Both the position numbers and the translations under genes were made by a program. DNA of 45,630 bases from an uncultured Bacteroidales bacterium (GTDB taxonomy: Bacteria > Bacteroidota > Bacteroidia > Bacteroidales > P3), in assembly GCA_947306225.1 (NCBI GenBank), contig CAMZFW010000004.1, positions 1 through 45,630 of the forward strand. Reading direction: 5' to 3'. A model generated the notes under the pieces. The model searched no databases, was not told where the DNA came from, and was given only the letters and a program-made list of their open reading frames with translations. Shown here piece by piece: positions 3,361-45,630 of this stretch (positions within the stretch are counted from its first letter, which is position 1; every line of letters begins with the position of its first letter).

Positions 3361-3390
3361 CTTTGCGTTCCATAAACTTTTTTCCGTCAT

Positions 3391-3475
3391 CCGTACCACA
3401 TTGTACCGCATCCTACCGCATTGTACCGCATTTTATCGATTCTTACCGCATTCTACCGCATCTTACCGATTCTAG
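3391..3475. repeat. Degenerate 10-bp tandem repeat (consensus ~TTNTACCGCA), about 8-9 units
   Basis: ccgtaccaca ttgtaccgca tcctaccgca ttgtaccgca ttttatcgat tcttaccgca ttctaccgca tcttaccgat tctag. Confidence 0.85.
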
Positions 3476-3488
3476 CTCATAAAGGGGT

Positions 3489-3549
3489 CGTTTGCCGTCG
3501 CCTGGACGGCAAACGATCGGATAACGAACGGCAAACGAACGGATAAGTG
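3489..3549. repeat. Perfect 11-bp inverted repeat followed by a 22-bp direct repeat
   Basis: CGTTTGCCGTC-gcctg-GACGGCAAACG (3489-3515); then ACGGCAAACGATCGGATAACGA (3506-3527) repeated as ACGGCAAACGAACGGATAAGTG (3528-3549). Confidence 0.85.
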
Positions 3550-6604: not shown

Positions 6605-7693
6605 ATGAAGTCGGCACTCATAACAGGTATAACGGGACAGGACGGAAGCTATCTTGCAGAGTTCCTCTTGGAAAAGGGGTATGATGTGCATGGTGTCATA
6701 CGTCGTTCGTCGGTTGACTATCGTGAGCGGATAGCGCACTTGGAGGGTCATGAGCGTTTCCATCTGCACTATGGCGACATGGGTGACACGCTGAGTGTCA
6801 TTCAGGTGGTAGGGAAAGTGAGACCGACTGAGATATACAACTTGGCGGCGCAGAGCCATGTGCAGGTTAGTTTTGATGCTCCTGAATATACAGCCAATGT
6901 CGATGCGACAGGTGTGTTGCGTATTCTTGAGGCGGTGCGTCACTGTGGATTGGAGAAGAGTTGCCGTATTTATCAGGCGAGCACATCGGAGCTGTATGGT
7001 CGTGTGGTTTCGGTGCCGCAGAACGAAGAGACTCCGTTTTATCCATACAGTCCGTATGCTGTGGCAAAGTTGTATGGATATTGGATAGTGAAGGAGTATC
7101 GTGAGGCATACAATATGTTCTGCTGTAATGGCATATTGTTCAACCATGAGAGCGAGCGGCGGGGAGAGACGTTTGTGACGCGTAAGATTACGCTGGCGGC
7201 GGCGCGTATCCGCCAAGGCAGGCAGGAGAAACTGCTGTTGGGCAACCTGTCGTCGTTGCGCGATTGGGGCTATGCCAAGGACTATGTGGAGTGTATGTGG
7301 ATGATATTGCAGAACGAGAATCCTGAGGACTTTGTCATTGCCACAGGCGAACAGCATAGTGTGAGAGAGTTTTGTCAGCTGGCTTTCCATTATGTAGGCA
7401 TCGAGTTGCGTTGGGAAGGCGAAGGTATTGACGAGAAAGGTATTGACAAGGCTACGGGAAAAGTGCTGGTGGAGGTGAGCCCCGATTTCTACCGTCCCAC
7501 TGATGTGGTAAACTTGCTGGGTGACCCGTCGAAGGCGAAGCGAATGTTAGGCTGGAACCCATCGAAGACACCTTTTGAGAAGTTGGTGAAGTTGATGGTG
7601 GAAAATGATATGGCAAAGGTAGCCTCCGACGAAGCGGCAGCAAAGGTACGCTGCAACCTCGCCGAATACCTCGAAAAAGGAATAGTAAAATGA
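6605..7693 (+). CDS. gmd: GDP-mannose 4,6-dehydratase
   Basis: [36 protein letters not shown] ... [20 protein letters not shown]; start trimmed to Met at 6605. Confidence 0.95.
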
Positions 7694-32470: not shown

Positions 32471-34972
32471 ATGGAAAATATATCTAATAAGACAAATCAG
32501 AACCCAACGCCGAACTATTCCGACCTGTCGTTCTTGGATGAGAAGCAGTCGGTCTCGTTTCATATTAAAGACTTGGTGTTTCTGCTGCTGCGCAACATCC
32601 ATTGGCTGTTAATTTTTGCGTTACTCGGAGGACTGGTCGCTAACTTTCTGGCGCGTCGTCAGGATAGAGTGTATCAGAGTCAAGCGAAGATACTTATTCG
32701 TAGCGGCAACGACCTCGGCATTAGTGATAACGATACACGCGAGCTGTCTATTAAAAATGCCTTGGGGCTCCGTTCGTTCTATTCGAGTACCATCAATAAT
32801 GAGATGATGATACTCACTTCTAAGTCTACCATCCAGAAAGCAGTGGAAGAATTGAAACTGAATGTAGTATATAGTACCGAGACTCGTTTTTTGAAGCGAA
32901 CGAAGAACCTTTATGCCATTTCACCAGTGGAACTGGAATTTGATTCCAGTGGGTTTATGCTGCCCGACTATCTGGTAATGAAGGTTGTGGACAAAGAACA
33001 TGCGTTGTTGCGCCGCCCAGGTCACCACTCTTTGCTGATACCGCTCGACAAGCCAGTGATGACACCGATGGGTAGGATGGTGGCGCATAAGACGTGGGCG
33101 TTTGTTGATAAGACGGTGGGTCAGGAAATTCATGTCGAACATAGCGACGTGGCGGCAGTGACGGACTACTACCGTTCGAAGTTGGTGGTGAAACGCAACG
33201 ATGAGCGAAACACTATCCTTAACCTCTATATGAAGGACTATTCGCCCCAACGATGTGCCGACTTTATCAATGCTGTGATTCGCGTCTATAATGAAGGTGC
33301 GGTAAACGATAAGAAGCGCATCATCAACGACACATATAACTATATCAACGAGCGTATCAGTGTCATCAGTAACGACCTTGGGGCACAGGAGTCAGCCATT
33401 GCAGCCTATCGCAGCAGTTCGGATGTGATGGCATCGAGTGCCTTCGGAGGTGGATATGTAAGCGCTAGTCTGCAGTCGGACAACGCGGCAGTGCGCCTAC
33501 AGAACGAGTTGGGCATGGCGCGTGACCTGCTGTCGGACATCAAGGCGAGCGATGGCACGGAGGTGATACCGATGGGTGCTATCTCGAATGGAGTGGTAGC
33601 ATCGTATCTGACAAAGTATAACAGTCATGCCCAACAAGTGGCTCGCTATAAGGAAATGGGGACGGTGAATAACCCTGTCGCTGCACGCGCCATTGAGAAC
33701 CAGAACCAGCAGAAAGAGGATCTAATTAGTATGACCGAGGGCTATATTTCGTCGTTGGAACAGCGCATCGTCAATGAGCGCGCCATCGCCAATGAAGCTT
33801 CCGCAAGGGTTCGTTCCGTACCTCTTAAACAAGTGCATCTTGAAGAATTGCAGCGTAACCAGAAGATTAAGGAGGAATTGTATGTGTCTTTGCTCACCCG
33901 CCGTGAAGAGTTGATGATTAGTAAGCCGTCCTTAGAGGGCTATGCCAAAATTATAGACCCTGCACCGGTGAACAATACACCCGTGTCTCCCAACACGTCA
34001 CACATGACCTTTGTGGGTGCGTTAATAGGTTTGTTGGTGCCTGTGGCGTTCTATCTGTTGCGTAAGCTGTTCGATACGCAAGTGAAGAGCTATGCCGATA
34101 TCGAATCCGCCACGTCAGTCCCATTCTTGTCGGAGATACCGGCATTGCCGGACGATGACGACCGCAATATTGTAATAACGGAGAAAGAGCACGACGGCAT
34201 TGCCGAGTCGTTCAGGCATCTGCGTGCCAAGATTGACTTTCTCAGCGGACAGCAGGGTCAGGCTAAGGTGTTGCTGTTCTCGTCACTTGTTCCAGGATCG
34301 GGCAAGACATTTACCACTAGCAACCTTGCCGCCAGTTTTGGATTGGCTAGCAAAAAGGTACTGCTGATGGACTTGGATTTGCGCAAGGGTTCACTCACCC
34401 GTAAGTTCTATTCGCGCAAGAAGCCGGGTATTGTTAACTACCTTACTGAGAAGATGACAGATATCGACAGTCTTATTCAGCATGATGTGGTGGCCCAAGG
34501 TGTTGATTCCATCTTCTCGGGTCCGCTGCCGCCCAACCCCGCTGAGTTGCTGGGTTCACCATTGTTCGACAAGTTAATGAACTACCTACGCGGACGTTAT
34601 GAGTACATCATCCTCGACAGCACGCCTGCTGGCATGGTAGTAGATACTGACATAGTGAAGCATGTGGCTGATCACACGGTATTCTTGATTCGTGCCCGCA
34701 AATTTGATAAGCGCATGTTGCTGGACATTGAGAGACTCTATAAGGACGGTGCCTTCCCCAATATGTACACCATTCTGAACGATGTGAAGTATGACAAGCA
34801 GCCGTTGTATGGCCGCAACTACGGTTATGGCTACGGTTACGGTTATGGTTACGGTTATGGTTACGGTTATGGCTACGGTTATGGTTACGGATATGGGGAG
34901 ACTACGAGTCAGAATGATGATGACGATGAGGGCATCCAGCCTACCACCGACAAGAAGCGTAGAAGAAAGTAA
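32471..34972 (+). CDS. wzc: Wzc-like PCP/BY-tyrosine kinase with Tyr-Gly repeat tail
   Basis: N-terminal Wzz-type domain, Walker A LVPGSGKTFTTSNLAASF, Walker A' KVLLMDLDLRKG, YIILDSTPAG; C-terminal (YG)n tail. Confidence 0.92.
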   Translation: MENISNKTNQNPTPNYSDLSFLDEKQSVSFHIKDLVFLLLRNIHWLLIFALLGGLVANFLARRQDRVYQSQAKILIRSGNDLGISDNDTRELSIKNALGLRSFYSSTINNEMMILTSKSTIQKAVEELKLNVVYSTETRFLKRTKNLYAISPVELEFDSSGFMLPDYLVMKVVDKEHALLRRPGHHSLLIPLDKPVMTPMGRMVAHKTWAFVDKTVGQEIHVEHSDVAAVTDYYRSKLVVKRNDERNTILNLYMKDYSPQRCADFINAVIRVYNEGAVNDKKRIINDTYNYINERISVISNDLGAQESAIAAYRSSSDVMASSAFGGGYVSASLQSDNAAVRLQNELGMARDLLSDIKASDGTEVIPMGAISNGVVASYLTKYNSHAQQVARYKEMGTVNNPVAARAIENQNQQKEDLISMTEGYISSLEQRIVNERAIANEASARVRSVPLKQVHLEELQRNQKIKEELYVSLLTRREELMISKPSLEGYAKIIDPAPVNNTPVSPNTSHMTFVGALIGLLVPVAFYLLRKLFDTQVKSYADIESATSVPFLSEIPALPDDDDRNIVITEKEHDGIAESFRHLRAKIDFLSGQQGQAKVLLFSSLVPGSGKTFTTSNLAASFGLASKKVLLMDLDLRKGSLTRKFYSRKKPGIVNYLTEKMTDIDSLIQHDVVAQGVDSIFSGPLPPNPAELLGSPLFDKLMNYLRGRYEYIILDSTPAGMVVDTDIVKHVADHTVFLIRARKFDKRMLLDIERLYKDGAFPNMYTILNDVKYDKQPLYGRNYGYGYGYGYGYGYGYGYGYGYGYGYGETTSQNDDDDEGIQPTTDKKRRRK
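34820..34897 (+). repeat. Coding tandem repeat, 13 x (TAY GGN) = (Tyr-Gly)13
   Basis: tacggttatggctacggttacggttatggttacggttatggttacggttatggctacggttatggttacggatatggg. Confidence 0.95.
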
Positions 34973-39074: not shown

Positions 39075-41489
39075 GTGGTGAAATCTGAGCATCCGATAAT
39101 CCGAAAATTTGAAATCTTGTTTGTCGTCAGCCTGACGCTTATGTCTGTCAGTCCGCTGAAAGCTCAAAATTGGCCTGAAAACCATGGTATCGTGGACTAT
39201 TCCTCTGAGCCAAAACCACTCTCCCTCCAAGGGCAGATTGTCGTGCCCACCGATGCCGACTCCATCGAACTCCTCACAGCGCGTCTGCTGCACCGATACT
39301 TAAGGAACTATGTCATCATCCCCGAGCCTGCCCATTCCGACTCGCTCTATTCTTTCTTCAATCCCAATTATGGCAACCTATTGCCCTCTATCTTTGTGGG
39401 CAAGACCCATTTGGCCAACTGGTGCCTCACCCGCAAGGACGACATACGCGACGACGGTTTCATCCTCAGGAGCGACGGTCGGCTGGCAGTCATATATGGC
39501 CTGCAGGACAAGGCAGTCTACTACGGTGCCTGCCGCCTGTTGGAATTGAAAGGCTACCGCATGACGCACCACCAGATACCCGATGTTGCCCCCAATATCC
39601 AACTAGGTCTGCCCATAGTCGACGAGGTGAACAACCCCAGCTTTGCCTACCGCGAGATATGGTACTACACCCCCCACCACAGCCAAGACTATGCCGACTG
39701 GCGCGCCCTGCATCATCGCATCTGTGTCGGCGACAGTGACCAATACAGATGGGATAGCCGTTTCTCAGGCCCACTCCGCTGGGCAGAAGAAATGTACGTT
39801 CACACTTTCCAAAAGCTTATCCCACCACGGCTATATTTTGACCGCCACCCTGAATGGTTTACCGATATAGGCGGACGGCGTGTCCGCGACGGGCAGCTAT
39901 GCCTCTCCAACCCTGAGGTGCTCGACACCCTCTGCGCCAACCTTGCTAAGATGATGGCCGACCAGCCCGAAGCTCAGATATGGTCGGTGTCGAACAACGA
40001 CAACTACAACGTCTGCCAGTGCCCCCATTGTCGCCACATGGACTCCCTCTATGGCGGCCCCAGTGGCACACTCATCCATTTCATCAATCAGGTGGCGCGT
40101 CGTTTCCCTAACAAGACTATCTCCACCCTTGCCTACCAATTCACTCGCCGGGCACCTCAGCCCGTGAACGGACATGTTGAGAAGCCCGACAGCAACGTCA
40201 ACATCATGTTCTGCTCCATCGAGTGCGGGCGCGAGGAGGCCATTGCCACTGCCCCTGCCGAGGCCTCGTTTCGCAAAGATATGGAGGACTGGGTAGCCCT
40301 CACCTCCAACATCTATGTCTGGGACTATGTGGTGCAGTTCCGCAACATGTGGAATCCTTTCCCAAATCTCCATGTCCTGCAGCCCAACCTCAAATACTTC
40401 CACGACCACGGCGTGCGCCTGATGTTTGAGCAGGGTACAGGAGCCAACAACGTGACCTCGTGGATGGAACTGCGCGAATACATGCTTGCCAAGCTGCTGT
40501 GGAACGTCGATGCCGACCCCGACTCGTTGATACACGACTTCTGTACCCACTACTATGGTTTCGCAGCCCAACCTGTCGAAGAACTCTATCGCGAGATGCA
40601 TCGTTCCCTCATCGCTTCAGGCCAACGGTTGGACATATATGGCTACCCCGTTGACGCTGCCCAAGGCTATCTTGCCCCAGGGCAAATTGACAAATACCAA
40701 GCCCTTATCGCCGCCGCCTACGACAGCCTGAGCCGTTACACCCCCACCAGCAACATTTACCACTACCCATACGGCATTTTCACTGACCAAGTGGTGCGCG
40801 ACCGCATTCGTTTCCTCGAACTCTCTATCGACTATGCCATTCTCGAACTCACCATGGCCGGCTATCTTCCCATGGACAGCACCTTCGTCTCTCGTGCCGA
40901 CCGCTTTGTAGCCGATGGCAAACGGCTTGGCCTCAACATCCTCCACGAAATGGGCTACACCCTACAAGAATACCGCACCGACATCGACAACTTCCTTGCC
41001 AAAACCTCCCAGCCCAACCTAGCCCGCCATTGTCCTGTTGCCCTCCTTCACCAGCCCGACAGCCAATACTATGCTGGCGGTGCGCAGGGGCTTACTGACG
41101 GCCGTGCCGGCATACTCGACTACCGCCACTCGTGGCTCGGCTTCTATGCCGACACCCTCGATGCCGTCATCGACCTCGGCAGCCGCAAACGCCTGCACCA
41201 AATCCAACTCGACTTCTTCTATTTCCCCCTCTCATGGATTTTCTTCCCCCAGTCCATTAACTATTATATCTCTAAGGATGGAAAACGCTGGCAGCTTGTC
41301 GGCACACACCATCCCGACAACCCCGAACGCCTTGCTGTGCCAGAAATAAGGACCTTCGCCACTTCCCGTTTCAATCACCGTGCCCGCTATGTGCGTGTTC
41401 AGGCCATTCCGTTGCCCACCATACCCGTCTGGCATCGCGCCACGGGCAACCCTTCTTGGATGTTCACTGACGAAATCATAGTAAAGTGA
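39075..41489 (+). CDS. DUF4838-like secreted glycosidase-like protein
   Basis: Signal peptide (LTLMSVSPLKAQ); WFTDIGGRRVRDGQLCLSNPEVLDTLCANLAKMM ... QIWSVSNNDNYNVCQCPHC ... TLAYQFTRRAPQ; C-terminal F5/8C-like segment possible. Confidence 0.7.
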   Translation: MVKSEHPIIRKFEILFVVSLTLMSVSPLKAQNWPENHGIVDYSSEPKPLSLQGQIVVPTDADSIELLTARLLHRYLRNYVIIPEPAHSDSLYSFFNPNYGNLLPSIFVGKTHLANWCLTRKDDIRDDGFILRSDGRLAVIYGLQDKAVYYGACRLLELKGYRMTHHQIPDVAPNIQLGLPIVDEVNNPSFAYREIWYYTPHHSQDYADWRALHHRICVGDSDQYRWDSRFSGPLRWAEEMYVHTFQKLIPPRLYFDRHPEWFTDIGGRRVRDGQLCLSNPEVLDTLCANLAKMMADQPEAQIWSVSNNDNYNVCQCPHCRHMDSLYGGPSGTLIHFINQVARRFPNKTISTLAYQFTRRAPQPVNGHVEKPDSNVNIMFCSIECGREEAIATAPAEASFRKDMEDWVALTSNIYVWDYVVQFRNMWNPFPNLHVLQPNLKYFHDHGVRLMFEQGTGANNVTSWMELREYMLAKLLWNVDADPDSLIHDFCTHYYGFAAQPVEELYREMHRSLIASGQRLDIYGYPVDAAQGYLAPGQIDKYQALIAAAYDSLSRYTPTSNIYHYPYGIFTDQVVRDRIRFLELSIDYAILELTMAGYLPMDSTFVSRADRFVADGKRLGLNILHEMGYTLQEYRTDIDNFLAKTSQPNLARHCPVALLHQPDSQYYAGGAQGLTDGRAGILDYRHSWLGFYADTLDAVIDLGSRKRLHQIQLDFFYFPLSWIFFPQSINYYISKDGKRWQLVGTHHPDNPERLAVPEIRTFATSRFNHRARYVRVQAIPLPTIPVWHRATGNPSWMFTDEIIVK

Positions 41490-41629
41490 AGATTGAAAGA
41501 TGAAAAATGAAACTTTTCGGGGGTGGTAATTAGTCACTCCCGCGAGATTTCAATTTCCTTTTTTTACATTTCAGAACCCGTTTTGTCCGTTTCGGGACAA
41601 AGCGAGAGTTTCTTGTCGAATAATGTGTG

Positions 41630-41637
41630 TACTTTTG
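41630..41637 (+). promoter_or_regulatory. Candidate -7 element TACTTTTG
   Basis: TAnnTTTG motif 21 bp upstream of the TolC-like ATG (41658). Confidence 0.55.
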
Positions 41638-41657
41638 CATTCGCAAATCTGAAGAAA

Positions 41658-43121
41658 ATGAGACGTACATTCATTATCACAATCCTATTGCTTTTGTCGC
41701 TGTCGGCGACGGCGCAGCAGCTCACCCTGTCGCAGTGCCACTACCTTGCCACGCAGAGCAATCCCACGCTCAAGGCGGCACAGGAACGCATCGATGCCGC
41801 CGATGCCCTGCTGGGCATGGCTTTCTGCCAATTTCTCCCCAAAGTGGATGCCCTCGGCACCTATGTGTGGAACCAGAAGAACATCCACCTCCTCAGCGAC
41901 GAGCAGGCGTACGACATCAACCACATCGGCACCACCGTCGAAAACGACATTGAGAACAGCCTTAGCGACTTCTTGGCTTCGATAGGTGTCACCAGCCCCA
42001 CTTTGGCACAGAATGTCGTGCAAAATCTGGGCGGCATGCGCCTCGAAGAAAATCTCAACAATATGGGTCAGAAGGTGACCGACGCCATGAATATCGACAT
42101 GCACAACATAGTGGCAGGCAGTGTCACAGTGGCGCAGCCGCTCTACCTTGGAGGCCGACTGTCGGCACTCTACCGCTCGGCTCAGTATAGTCGCGACATG
42201 CAGCAAGCGTTGGGCAACAAGGTCTACGACGGACTCCTGATTGCTGTCGATGCTGCCTACTGGCAGTATATTTCGCTCCAACACAAGCAGCAACTGGCAC
42301 AGCAGTACTACGACCTGTTGCAGAACCTCGACAGCAATGTGGTGGCGATGGTCGATGCCGATGTTGCCACCCGTGGCGACGTCACCAAGGTGCGTGTCAA
42401 ACTCAACGAAGCACGCATGAACCTTACCAAGGCTGACTGCGGGCTGGAGTTGGCGCGGCTGGCTCTGTGCCAAATATGCGGGCTAGACCCAAACGGTGGT
42501 TATGTATTTGTTGAGGACAGCACAATAGCCACCTACAGCCCGTTGGAGCATATAGACATCGAAAAAATATGCGCCGCCCGCGATGATTACCGTGCGCTTT
42601 GCGATGCAGAAGGAATAGCCAACCAAGGTGTGCGCCTGGCCAGTGCGGGTCTGTTGCCCAACGTGGTGGTGACTGGCTCGTACGTGGTGAGCAACCCCAA
42701 CCTGTATAATGGTTTTCAGAACAGCTTTGGCGGCATGTTCACGGCTGGCGTGGCGATAAACATTCCGCTAGGCCATCCGGGCGACATCTATGCCCTCAAA
42801 GCTGCCAAGCACAAGCGTGCCGAAACCACCTATCAAGTCGAGGAGTCGAAGAACCTTATTCGTCTCGAGGTGAACCGCCTTAATCATCAGTTGAAGGTGG
42901 CAAACCTTAAACTACAGCAGGCCGAAAGCGACCTCGACAATGCCGAGGAGAATTTGCGGCTGGCCGACGAGTCGTTCGAAGCCGGGGTGGTCAGCAGTAC
43001 CGACTTGATGGCAGCGCAGACTGCCTGGATGAAGGCAAAGACCGAAGTGCTGGATGCCGAGATAGAGTTGCGGCTCGACCACCTCTACTTGATGCAGGCA
43101 ACTGGGAGAATTGAGAATTGA
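41658..43121 (+). CDS. TolC-family outer-membrane efflux protein
   Basis: Signal peptide then QQLTLSQCHYLATQSNPTLKAAQERIDAADALLGMA ... AEENLRLADESFEAGVVSSTDLMAAQTAW. Confidence 0.92.
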   Translation: MRRTFIITILLLLSLSATAQQLTLSQCHYLATQSNPTLKAAQERIDAADALLGMAFCQFLPKVDALGTYVWNQKNIHLLSDEQAYDINHIGTTVENDIENSLSDFLASIGVTSPTLAQNVVQNLGGMRLEENLNNMGQKVTDAMNIDMHNIVAGSVTVAQPLYLGGRLSALYRSAQYSRDMQQALGNKVYDGLLIAVDAAYWQYISLQHKQQLAQQYYDLLQNLDSNVVAMVDADVATRGDVTKVRVKLNEARMNLTKADCGLELARLALCQICGLDPNGGYVFVEDSTIATYSPLEHIDIEKICAARDDYRALCDAEGIANQGVRLASAGLLPNVVVTGSYVVSNPNLYNGFQNSFGGMFTAGVAINIPLGHPGDIYALKAAKHKRAETTYQVEESKNLIRLEVNRLNHQLKVANLKLQQAESDLDNAEENLRLADESFEAGVVSSTDLMAAQTAWMKAKTEVLDAEIELRLDHLYLMQATGRIEN

Positions 43122-43178
43122 AAATTGAAAGTTGAAAATTGGCTGCCGCCATTAAACTTTAAATATTAAACTTTAAAC
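43106..43178. repeat. Two adjacent heptanucleotide arrays (GARAATT)5 and (WTTAAAY)4
   Basis: gagaatt gagaatt gaaaatt gaaagtt gaaaatt (43106-43140); attaaac tttaaat attaaac tttaaac (43151-43178). Confidence 0.9.
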
Positions 43179-43186
43179 TCTAATAT

Positions 43187-44173
43187 ATGAATAAGGAACA
43201 AAAAAGTCTATGGCTGGGAATCGGAGTGGTCATCGCAGTAGTGGCGGTGGTGGCGATAATAGGCATATTTGCCCTCCAGCCCGAGCCCGAAATGATTACT
43301 GGCGAAGTATGCGCCGACGAATACCGTGTTGCCAATAAGGTGCCTGGACGTTTGAGTACCCTCTTTGTGGAAGAGGGGCAGCAGGTGCGCGCTGGCGATA
43401 CGCTGGCTTATATCAGCAGCCCTGAGGTGGATGCCAAGATGCAGCAGGCGCGAGCTGCCCGTGCCGCCGCCACCGCGCAGAGCAGCAAGGCGCAGAACGG
43501 TGCCCGAGAGCAACAGGTGGCATCCGCCTACGAGATGTGGCAAAAGGCAGAGGTGGGTGTTGATATTGCCAAGAAGTCGTACGACCGTGTGCAGCAACTC
43601 TACGACAAGAAGGTGGTGTCGGCACAGAAACGAGATGAGGCTGAGGCACAGTACAAGGCTGCGGTGGCAACTGCGAATGCAGCCAAGTTGCAGTATGAGA
43701 TGGCTCGCGAAGGGGCGCAGAACGAGGATAAGGAGGCCGCCAACGCATTGGTGCAACAGGCACAAGGTGCTGTGTCGGAGGTGGAGGCGTATGTGCAAGA
43801 CCGCTACCTGTTGGCTCCTTGTGATGGGGAGGTGGCTGAGATTTACGCCAAGCGTAGTGACTTGATTGGCACGGGCTCGCCCGTGATGTCTATCCTCGAC
43901 ATGAGCAATGTGTGGATTTCGGTTAGTGTGCGCGAAGATATGTTGGGCGACTTGCGTGTGGGTTCGTTGGCCGAGATAAAGATTCCAGCCTTGGGCGACC
44001 AAACTTACACTGCCCGTGTCACCTATCTCAGGGCAATGGCTTCGTATGCCGTGTGGCGTGCCACCAAAATCAATGGGCAGTACGATGTGAAGAGTTTCGA
44101 CGTGAAGTTGGTGCCGCAGGAGCCTATTGACGGCCTGCGACCCGGCATGACGGCAATAGTTGTGAATGAGTGA
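43187..44173 (+). CDS. HlyD-family membrane fusion protein
   Basis: N-terminal TM; ITGEVCADEYRVANKVPGRLSTLFVEEGQQVRAGDTLAYISSPEV ... LLAPCDGEVAEIYAKRSDLIGTGSPVMSILD. Confidence 0.92.
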   Translation: MNKEQKSLWLGIGVVIAVVAVVAIIGIFALQPEPEMITGEVCADEYRVANKVPGRLSTLFVEEGQQVRAGDTLAYISSPEVDAKMQQARAARAAATAQSSKAQNGAREQQVASAYEMWQKAEVGVDIAKKSYDRVQQLYDKKVVSAQKRDEAEAQYKAAVATANAAKLQYEMAREGAQNEDKEAANALVQQAQGAVSEVEAYVQDRYLLAPCDGEVAEIYAKRSDLIGTGSPVMSILDMSNVWISVSVREDMLGDLRVGSLAEIKIPALGDQTYTARVTYLRAMASYAVWRATKINGQYDVKSFDVKLVPQEPIDGLRPGMTAIVVNE

Positions 44174-44220
44174 ATTCGTTAATGCGTTGTATTGGTAGTC
44201 CTGCTAACACATTCACAATT

Positions 44221-45366
44221 ATGAAAGCCTTTTATAGTTCACTGAGGCGTGAGTTTCGTCGTATACGTTACGAGGGTCAGAGTCGTTATCTGGTTCTGAC
44301 CACGTTGGGTGTGGTGTTCTGCTACGTTTTTTTCCTCACGCTGATGGATGAGGGGCAGCCACAGCGATTGCCCATTGCCATAGTGGATCAGGATGGCAGC
44401 TACCTTTCGCGGCGGCTCTGCCATGAGATTAATGCTACGCAAGGTGTGAGGGTGGTGGCGGTGTATGGCAGCCATACCGAAGCCCGCCAAGCCATGCAGC
44501 GGCAGGAGATATACGCTTTCCTCGAAATACCCGAAGGCACTTACGACGAGTTGCTGTCGTTCACCCGCCCACATATTGTGCTGTATAGCAACAATGCCTA
44601 TCTGCTCAGCGGCTCGCTGAGCTACCGCTCGTTGGCGACGATAAGCAAGCTGGCGTCGGGCGCAGTGGAGCGCGAAGTGTTACGCAAGAAGGGCTATGGC
44701 GAGAGGCAGATAATGGGGTTCATACAGCCCATAGAGTTGGATACCCACCTCATTAGCAATCCCACGGCCAACTACCAGCCCTACGTGCTCACCACCATGC
44801 TGCCCGGCATGCTGGGCTTGTCGGTGTTGCTGCTGACGGTCTATATGGTGGGTAAAGAACGCAAGAGTGGCACTATGCCCGAATGGCTTGGCCAATCGCC
44901 CTATGCTGCCTTGCTGGGCAAAATGGCACCCTATACCCTATGGTTTTCCCTGCTGGGTGTGGTGGGGAACATGGTGCTGTTTGGCTGGTGCCATTTCGAG
45001 CTGCATGGCAGTTTTGGGTTGGTGGTGGTGTTCACGTTGCTGCTGGTGCTGGCAATGCAGTCGACGGGTGTGTTTCTTGCGGGGATGATTCCCGAGCCGC
45101 ATTTGGCCACCTGCTTTGCCGCCATCTATGGCACGTTGGCATTCACCATGGCGGGATTCTCCTATCCTGTTACCAGTATGCCGCCCGCGCTGCAAGCGTT
45201 GAGTCAGCTGTTTCCGCTGCGCCACTATTATAAGGCGGTGTCGGGGGTGTCGTTGTTCGGTTGCGGGATGGATATATGTTGGGTGCAAGTGTGTGGGTTG
45301 TTGCTGTTTCTGATTGCAGGCGTGATAGGGTGTTGGCGTATGAGCAAATTGAAAAGTGAAAAGTGA
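44221..45366 (+). CDS. ABC-2 type transporter permease
   Basis: LREFRRIRYEGQSRYLVLTTLGVVFCYVFFLTLMDEGQPQRLPIAIVDQDGSYLSRRL ... TSMPPALQALSQLFPLRHYYKAV. Confidence 0.9.
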   Translation: MKAFYSSLRREFRRIRYEGQSRYLVLTTLGVVFCYVFFLTLMDEGQPQRLPIAIVDQDGSYLSRRLCHEINATQGVRVVAVYGSHTEARQAMQRQEIYAFLEIPEGTYDELLSFTRPHIVLYSNNAYLLSGSLSYRSLATISKLASGAVEREVLRKKGYGERQIMGFIQPIELDTHLISNPTANYQPYVLTTMLPGMLGLSVLLLTVYMVGKERKSGTMPEWLGQSPYAALLGKMAPYTLWFSLLGVVGNMVLFGWCHFELHGSFGLVVVFTLLLVLAMQSTGVFLAGMIPEPHLATCFAAIYGTLAFTMAGFSYPVTSMPPALQALSQLFPLRHYYKAVSGVSLFGCGMDICWVQVCGLLLFLIAGVIGCWRMSKLKSEK

Positions 45367-45412
45367 AAATTGAAAAGAATGTGTTAATGTGTGAATGCGT
45401 TAATGTGTTAGT
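45344..45412. repeat. Heptad array (GAAAAKT)5 followed by octad array (GTGTTAAT)4
   Basis: gcaaatt gaaaagt gaaaagt gaaaatt gaaaaga (45344-45378); gtgttaat gtgtgaat gcgttaat gtgttagt (45381-45412). Confidence 0.85.
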
Positions 45413-45494
45413 CCTTGGTGCATCAAAGACTCACGAATTAACGAATTGTTTTGTCTAATCACTATTCACAAATCACTAATAAAACACTATAGTT

Positions 45495-45630
45495 ATGAAA
45501 CTGTTGAAAGATTTGTGGGACATTTTTGTCATCGAGGTGCGTCGTGTGCTTCACGACAAGGGGGTGGTGCTCATTTTCTTTATAGCCACGCTTATCTATC
45601 CGTTGATATTCGGAGCGATATATAAGAACG
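45495..45630 (+). CDS. ABC-2 type transporter permease, N-terminal fragment (runs off right edge)
   Basis: MKLLKDLWDIFVIEVRRVLHDKGVVLIFFIATLIYPLIFGAIYKN; follows a homologous permease gene. Confidence 0.8.
   Translation, partial: MKLLKDLWDIFVIEVRRVLHDKGVVLIFFIATLIYPLIFGAIYKN

Follow-up and report, generated by a model that had tools for sequence, protein, structure and literature searches.

Heptad and octad arrays at gene junctions of a rumen-type Bacteroidales genome as probable arms of dispersed intergenic elements

Arrays at the gene ends of an efflux cluster

The stretch of DNA analysed here (the window; 45,630 nt) is contig C4 of a rumen-type Bacteroidales draft genome (G000; 2.41 Mb, 85% complete). 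Its efflux region contains genes for a DUF4838 protein, a TolC-type outer membrane efflux protein, an HlyD-type membrane fusion protein and an ABC-2 permease, and a second ABC-2 gene begins at the window end. Genes of G000 were called with a home-made caller using a simple dicodon model (1164 genes, 88% coding), on which all gene ends given below rest. The nearest named relatives by the HlyD gene are the Bacteroidales MAGs RGIG5981 (L088, sheep omasum) and Tb.RUG.126 (L089). Across window positions 41566-45630, the efflux cluster and its counterpart in RGIG5981 share 94.6% identity, as compared to an average of 82% over aligned parts of the two genomes, a difference that suggests either recent operon exchange or strong conservation. 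As to known RNA families, only a tRNA was found in the window, and at 34819-34896, near the end of gene 32471-34972, lies a coding tandem repeat with a period of 18-24 nt (GGTTACGGTTATGG).

The initial annotation had described six arrays of period 7 or 8 at the 3' ends of the efflux genes, and all six are present at these positions, far beyond chance. Matches at the lag of the period numbered 19/28 (41481-41515), 25/28 (43106-43140), 16/21 (43151-43178) and 23/28 (45344-45378) for the heptads, and 15/24 (44161-44192) and 19/24 (45381-45412) for the octads. The observed value was reached in 0 of 2000 composition-preserving shuffles for five arrays and in 1 of 2000 for 44161-44192, counts that are uncorrected for the stretches having been picked by eye. 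TRF clearly detected arrays at 43109-43141, 43152-43183, 45346-45377 and 45378-45410, gave a weak detection at 41483-41512 (score 32-37) and did not detect 44161-44192; the arrays at 41481 and 44161 are therefore degenerate. Stops in all three frames are present on the + strand of every array except 45381-45412, which has stops in two; on the − strand, the arrays at 41481, 43106 and 45344 are stop-free.

Each array forms an arm of a larger arrangement. The DUF4838 gene (39075-41489) has its stop codon (41487-41489) inside a degenerate sense heptad arm (41481-41515, + strand), which is followed at 41516-41600 (+) by the GC-rich core TCGGGGGTGGTAATTAGTCACTCCCGCGAG, which resembles a core at L042:4146-4180, and a degenerate T-rich right arm, this stretch having a predicted RNA hairpin fold with z −2.3. 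At the next junction, a sense heptad arm (43106-43140, +) encodes the final residues of the TolC/OEP gene (41658-43121) together with its stop (43119-43121); neither L088 nor L089 has this arm. The arm is followed by a short core, GGCTGCCGCC (43141-43150, +), which has the GCTGCCGC motif in common with the genome-wide heptad core, and by a right arm of TAAACTT/TAAATAT heptads (43151-43178, −), partly complementary to the left arm and ending 8 nt short of the HlyD start (43187). A degenerate sense octad arm (44161-44192, +), whose octad is also found in L088 and has decayed in L089, contains the stop codon of HlyD (44171-44173); a spacer and a short right arm, AACACATTCACAA (44193-44220, −), precede the ABC-2 start at 44221. 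Finally, a sense heptad arm (45344-45378, +) holds the ABC-2 stop codon (45364-45366) and replaces the C-terminal tail of L088/L089. Beside it are a sense octad arm of the AATGTGTT family (45381-45412, +) and, at 45413-45448 (−), the core GTCCTTGGTGCATCAAAGACT with the right octad arm CACGAATTAACGAATTG, of which a related copy occurs at L088:7335-7391 and the same core type at L047:14329-14749.

Periods, families and architecture across the genome

Periodicity was assessed genome-wide by a lag scan of self-matches at lags 2-25 against second-order Markov simulations, with counts covering 1.41 Mb of G000. This revealed 156 intergenic arrays of period 7, 100 of period 8, 42 of period 10 and 51 of period 11, with none in the Markov null. 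Period 9 accounted for 15, periods 4-6 and 13 were nearly absent, period 12 was rare, and periods 14, 16, 20 and 22 follow as multiples. The initial annotation had proposed following periods 7 and 8 through the intergenic DNA of the genome, with AT-rich low complexity as a possible trivial cause; the empty null, the near absence of periods 4-6 and 13 and the rarity of period 12 show that this is not the cause. Of all period-7 arrays, 156/200 were intergenic. Related genome G031 has peaks at periods 7, 8 and 11, and G032 at 7 only. Octads were seen in each of the 8 genomes sampled from the genus and are essentially missing from the rest of the 61 genomes covered in the family; heptads are patchy. 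G000, RGIG5981 and the genus member G089 are rich in elements, G032 and G017 poor.

The arrays had also been said to differ in sequence while sharing periodicity and placement. The shared periodicity and placement stand; the difference in sequence holds only in part, as the arrays can be assigned to a small number of dispersed families whose GC-rich cores recur. The heptads make up what is nearly a single superfamily (AAAATTG/AAAGTTG and a branch, AAAAACT), while period 8 comprises a few families, period 10 essentially one and period 11 several. Longer units also appear in the window itself, where a composite at 3388-3542 combines a 10-nt array (TACCGCATYY, ~8 units) with an 11-nt array (ACGGCAAACGA); its modules recur in >30 intergenic regions of the genome. 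Near-perfect palindromes of 90-130 bp, built of 11-nt units of the GTATAAATAAG type around a 4-nt loop such as CTAG, were seen at L047:730-845, L052:11045-11154 and further loci, and period-9 arrays at L085:6667-6752 and 7463-7503 carry a fixed ACTAG motif in most units, the rest being variable.

We located heptad arrays by the consensus TGARARK, which gave 215 in 1.41 Mb. The same scan gave 146 on the reversed sequence, but purine-rich heptads match the consensus in part when read backwards, so the clean null is that of the lag scan, not this one. Among pairs of opposite orientation lying ≤80 bp apart, 46 were convergent and 1 divergent (10 and 1 in G031). The order is (TGAARRT)n, a GC-rich core of 16-20 nt and the reverse-complement array, with a modal arm length of 33 nt (4-5 units) and a modal core spacing of 16-20 nt. 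The exact core GCTGCCGCACCCGGATAA occurs 12 times in 1.41 Mb, in 11 intergenic regions, and a GCTGNCGC-type motif is found in 24/36 heptad-heptad cores, as compared to 0.016 per 25 nt of intergenic DNA. Cores beside octad arms are similar (e.g. GCTGACGCGGTCAAA), and left and right arms tend to match in period (36 heptad-heptad, 5 octad-octad and 10 mixed; p 0.008). Convergent pairs with a GCTGNCGC-type core are present in G000, G089 and, as GCTGACAC, G094.

These arrangements share with MITEs their inverted repeats and their dispersed non-coding copies, given the inverted arms, the shared core and the many loci. A typical heptad element measures ~80 bp: 4-5 TGA-containing heptads make up the sense arm (33 nt), the GC-rich core takes 16-20 nt (typically GCTGCCGCACCCGGAT), and the second arm, inverted, equals the first in size. 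Octad arms, and probably the 11-mers too, follow a similar layout.

An alternative is plain local slippage, that is, the expansion of simple sequences at AT-rich junctions without any transfer from locus to locus. Consistent with this, the number of units per heptad array varies from 3 to 15, some arrays appear to begin at a pre-existing TTGA, and a published idea relates the abundance of heptamers to the footprint of the polymerase (discussed in PMC4692102). However, slippage cannot yield the same GC-rich core at many loci, the 46:1 convergent order or the 33-nt arm mode, and the counts of the exact core (12) and of the GCTGNCGC-type motif (24/36) already oppose independent chance cores. We consider this explanation very unlikely.

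Stop codons, placement and possible functions

On the TGA strand, 190/215 heptad arrays stop all three frames, as compared to 11% of control 33-nt intergenic windows; on the opposite strand, 194/215 hold no stop in any frame. The arrays lie between co-directional and convergent genes, with fewer between divergent ones. At co-directional junctions, the sense and antisense orientations are taken by 78 and 75 arrays, respectively. The start of a sense array precedes the end of the stop codon by a median of 2 nt, which is partly automatic, since the frame entering the array terminates there. The initial annotation would have been contradicted by arrays no more frequent near stops than elsewhere; among the 33 sense arrays lying wholly after a stop codon, however, 19 are within 10 nt of it, against 2.6 expected. 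Antisense arrays end ≤30 nt from the next start in 42% of cases (26% expected). Co-directional junctions have a median gap of 127 nt with arrays and 40 nt without, a difference of about one element, and short ancestral gaps would account for some of the proximity to stops and starts. Selection or targeting could be an alternative cause of the strong clustering at stops.

The initial annotation had proposed that the arrays behave as all-frame translational stops. In this reading, they would be selected at gene 3' ends against readthrough and frameshifted ribosomes, uncoupling operon neighbours. The arithmetic does hold for the sense arm, which begins at or beside the stop codon and closes three frames in the large majority of arrays, and the period spectrum is in keeping with it, period 9 being rarer than 7, 8, 10 and 11, and periods 6 and 12 being rare in intergenic DNA; this spectrum, however, rests on a handful of independent families. 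As a function it is not supported: the downstream arm is stop-free yet as common as the upstream arm, and an all-frame stop therefore cannot be the general function. Furthermore, a 33-nt array far exceeds the need, close relatives lack arrays at the same operon junctions, and Xanthomonas arrays are placed alike with a stop-free unit (PMC4692102). TAA-type units were not in excess in sense over antisense arms (17/78 and 13/75, p 0.54, a rough value as unit counts take pairs within one element as independent). Selection for all-frame stops is thus quite unlikely to explain the arrays, and the stops of the sense arm are most likely a by-product that aids tolerance. Because each of its heptads contains TGA or TAA and the 7-nt period is not divisible by 3, a sense arm landing in the 3' end of a gene would terminate any frame at once, and such a landing would be tolerable.

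Paired arms might instead act as RNA, forming long mRNA stems that insulate, protect or process transcripts between genes in a REP-like role. Complete elements can fold strongly (z −6.7 at L032:10446-10560 and −9.2 at L022:2235-2345), and the placement of the arrays, between co-directional and convergent genes with fewer between divergent ones, would suit such a role. In contrast, the elements of the window fold weakly (z −0.6 to −2.3), junctions freely gain or lose elements, and mismatches in mRNA-strand stems comprise 36 G.T and 69 A.C, where a selected stem should favour G.U; these counts again treat pairs within one element as independent, making p-values rough. With A.C mismatches outnumbering G.T, we rejected RNA-level selection on the stem, and functional hairpins appear rather unlikely. 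Intrinsic terminators were likewise rejected, the efflux region having 5 terminator-like sites against a shuffled expectation of 4.5.

Turnover, copying and relation to known repeats

Two elements of the window, 43106-43178 and 45344-45477, are absent from both L088 (94.6% identical flanks) and L089 (89.6%). At the corresponding TolC-HlyD and ABC-ABC junctions the two relatives agree, both being without an element, and the gene tail and gap are replaced in the window. DNA alignments read by hand place the change within the proteins: the TolC ending ATGEST.TV.G of L088/L089 corresponds to ATGRIEN in the window, and the ABC-2 ending LVSDVRIKK to MSKLKSEK, each window ending being wholly or partly array-encoded. 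The gap before the next ABC-2 gene is >100 nt longer in the window than in L088/L089. Across 155 junctions matched between G000 and G031, arrays were present in both genomes at 27, in G000 only at 14, in G031 only at 16 and in neither at 98, and at several orthologous junctions the heptads of one genome have octads as their counterpart in the other. A comparison of relatives had been suggested by the initial annotation with copy number in mind; here the presence of arrays, not just their length, differs, 30/155 junctions having them in one genome only. With G000 and G031 only ~82% identical over aligned parts, gain cannot be told from loss at most of these junctions; at the two junctions of the window it can, because L088 and L089 agree. 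No clean target-site duplication or clean empty site was seen, and the events look like replacements, not simple insertions.

Taken together, the arrays are probably the arms of a fast-turnover, REP/MITE-like class of dispersed intergenic repeats. When such an element arises at a gene junction, it would take the place of the short gap and, in some cases, of the final codons of the gene upstream, as seen at two junctions. Copying could proceed by transposition with an enzyme acting in trans, or by break repair that copies an element from elsewhere. REP/BIME sequences are enterobacterial palindromes present in many copies after stop codons and between operon genes, and are associated with a Y1 (RAYT) transposase. 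The Bacteroidales elements resemble them in being palindromic, in copy number and in both aspects of placement, whereas REP/BIME lack tandem heptad arms. No Y1 transposase (PF01797) was found in the 85% complete G000 draft, while G031 and G032 have two each; with the enzyme not found in G000, we rejected RAYT/REP mobilisation. A search of plasmid and phage collections with one complete element found no relative, although the BLAST low-complexity filter may hide the arms.

A literature search on the exact unit strings gave no match. The closest published case is that of the GGGAATC arrays of Xanthomonas and the GGGGA(C/T)T arrays of Nostoc (Rehm et al. 2015, PMC4692102), for which a G-quadruplex role was proposed and the preferred unit number linked to quadruplexes, and whose function was not found. 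Most of those repeats lie between the same genes in both species, and array length and sequence vary between related species. Like the arrays described here, they are dispersed intergenic heptads with few units (mode 4 there, 4-5 here) and convergent inverted pairs, mostly at co-directional junctions and rarely between divergent genes, sense at or over the stop and antisense just upstream of the next gene. In contrast, the Bacteroidales units are not G-rich; they are AT-rich (AAAATTG, AAAGTTG, AAAAACT etc.), allow no G-quadruplex, hold TGA/TAA on one strand and flank recurring GC-rich cores. Bacteroidales heptads also coexist with octad, 10-mer and 11-mer arrays, and their presence, not just their length, varies between relatives. 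By our own reading, neither strand of the GGGAATC unit contains a stop codon. Since the Bacteroidales arrays cannot form quadruplexes and GGGAATC is stop-free, neither quadruplexes nor stop codons are the common cause, if there is one; what the Bacteroidales and Xanthomonas arrays have in common is inverted tandem arrays filling the junction.

Two further repeat types are more distant. TAACTGA direct repeats in Beggiatoaceae, Cyanobacteria and some Bacteroidetes, proposed as sites for a translational regulator (MacGregor 2015, PMC4679880), are also intergenic heptamers at many loci with stop triplets in each unit, but lie mostly just upstream of starts in forward orientation, with one indirect repeat only. 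The G000 arrays do not belong to this type, as their units differ and those before starts are antisense. The BrickBuilt MITE of Porphyromonas gingivalis (19 copies, 49-591 nt from genes; Klein et al. 2015, PMC4596501) is likewise a dispersed intergenic element of the Bacteroidales with tandem repeats inside a miniature inverted-repeat element. Its 23-nt units, however, sit within short inverted ends, whereas in G000 the inverted arms are the tandem arrays themselves and abut genes.

The Bacteroidales elements are thus an AT-rich variant of an already known, unexplained kind of array. It is conceivable, if tentative, that one machinery or repair pathway spreads modular palindromes of 7-, 8- or 11-nt arrays, similar in total length and with a GCTGNCGC-type core, placed exactly between stop and start, and that the Xanthomonas and Nostoc arrays arise by the same process; if so, the Xanthomonas/Nostoc layout would not be due to G-quadruplexes. 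AT-rich Bacteroidales arrays of the same layout in any case make quadruplexes unnecessary to explain it. As the elements quickly rewrite operon spacers and the last codons of proteins, they bear on annotation, C-terminus evolution and operon spacing, and both the mechanism and the effect on expression can be tested directly, since the nearly identical efflux operons include filled as well as empty alleles.
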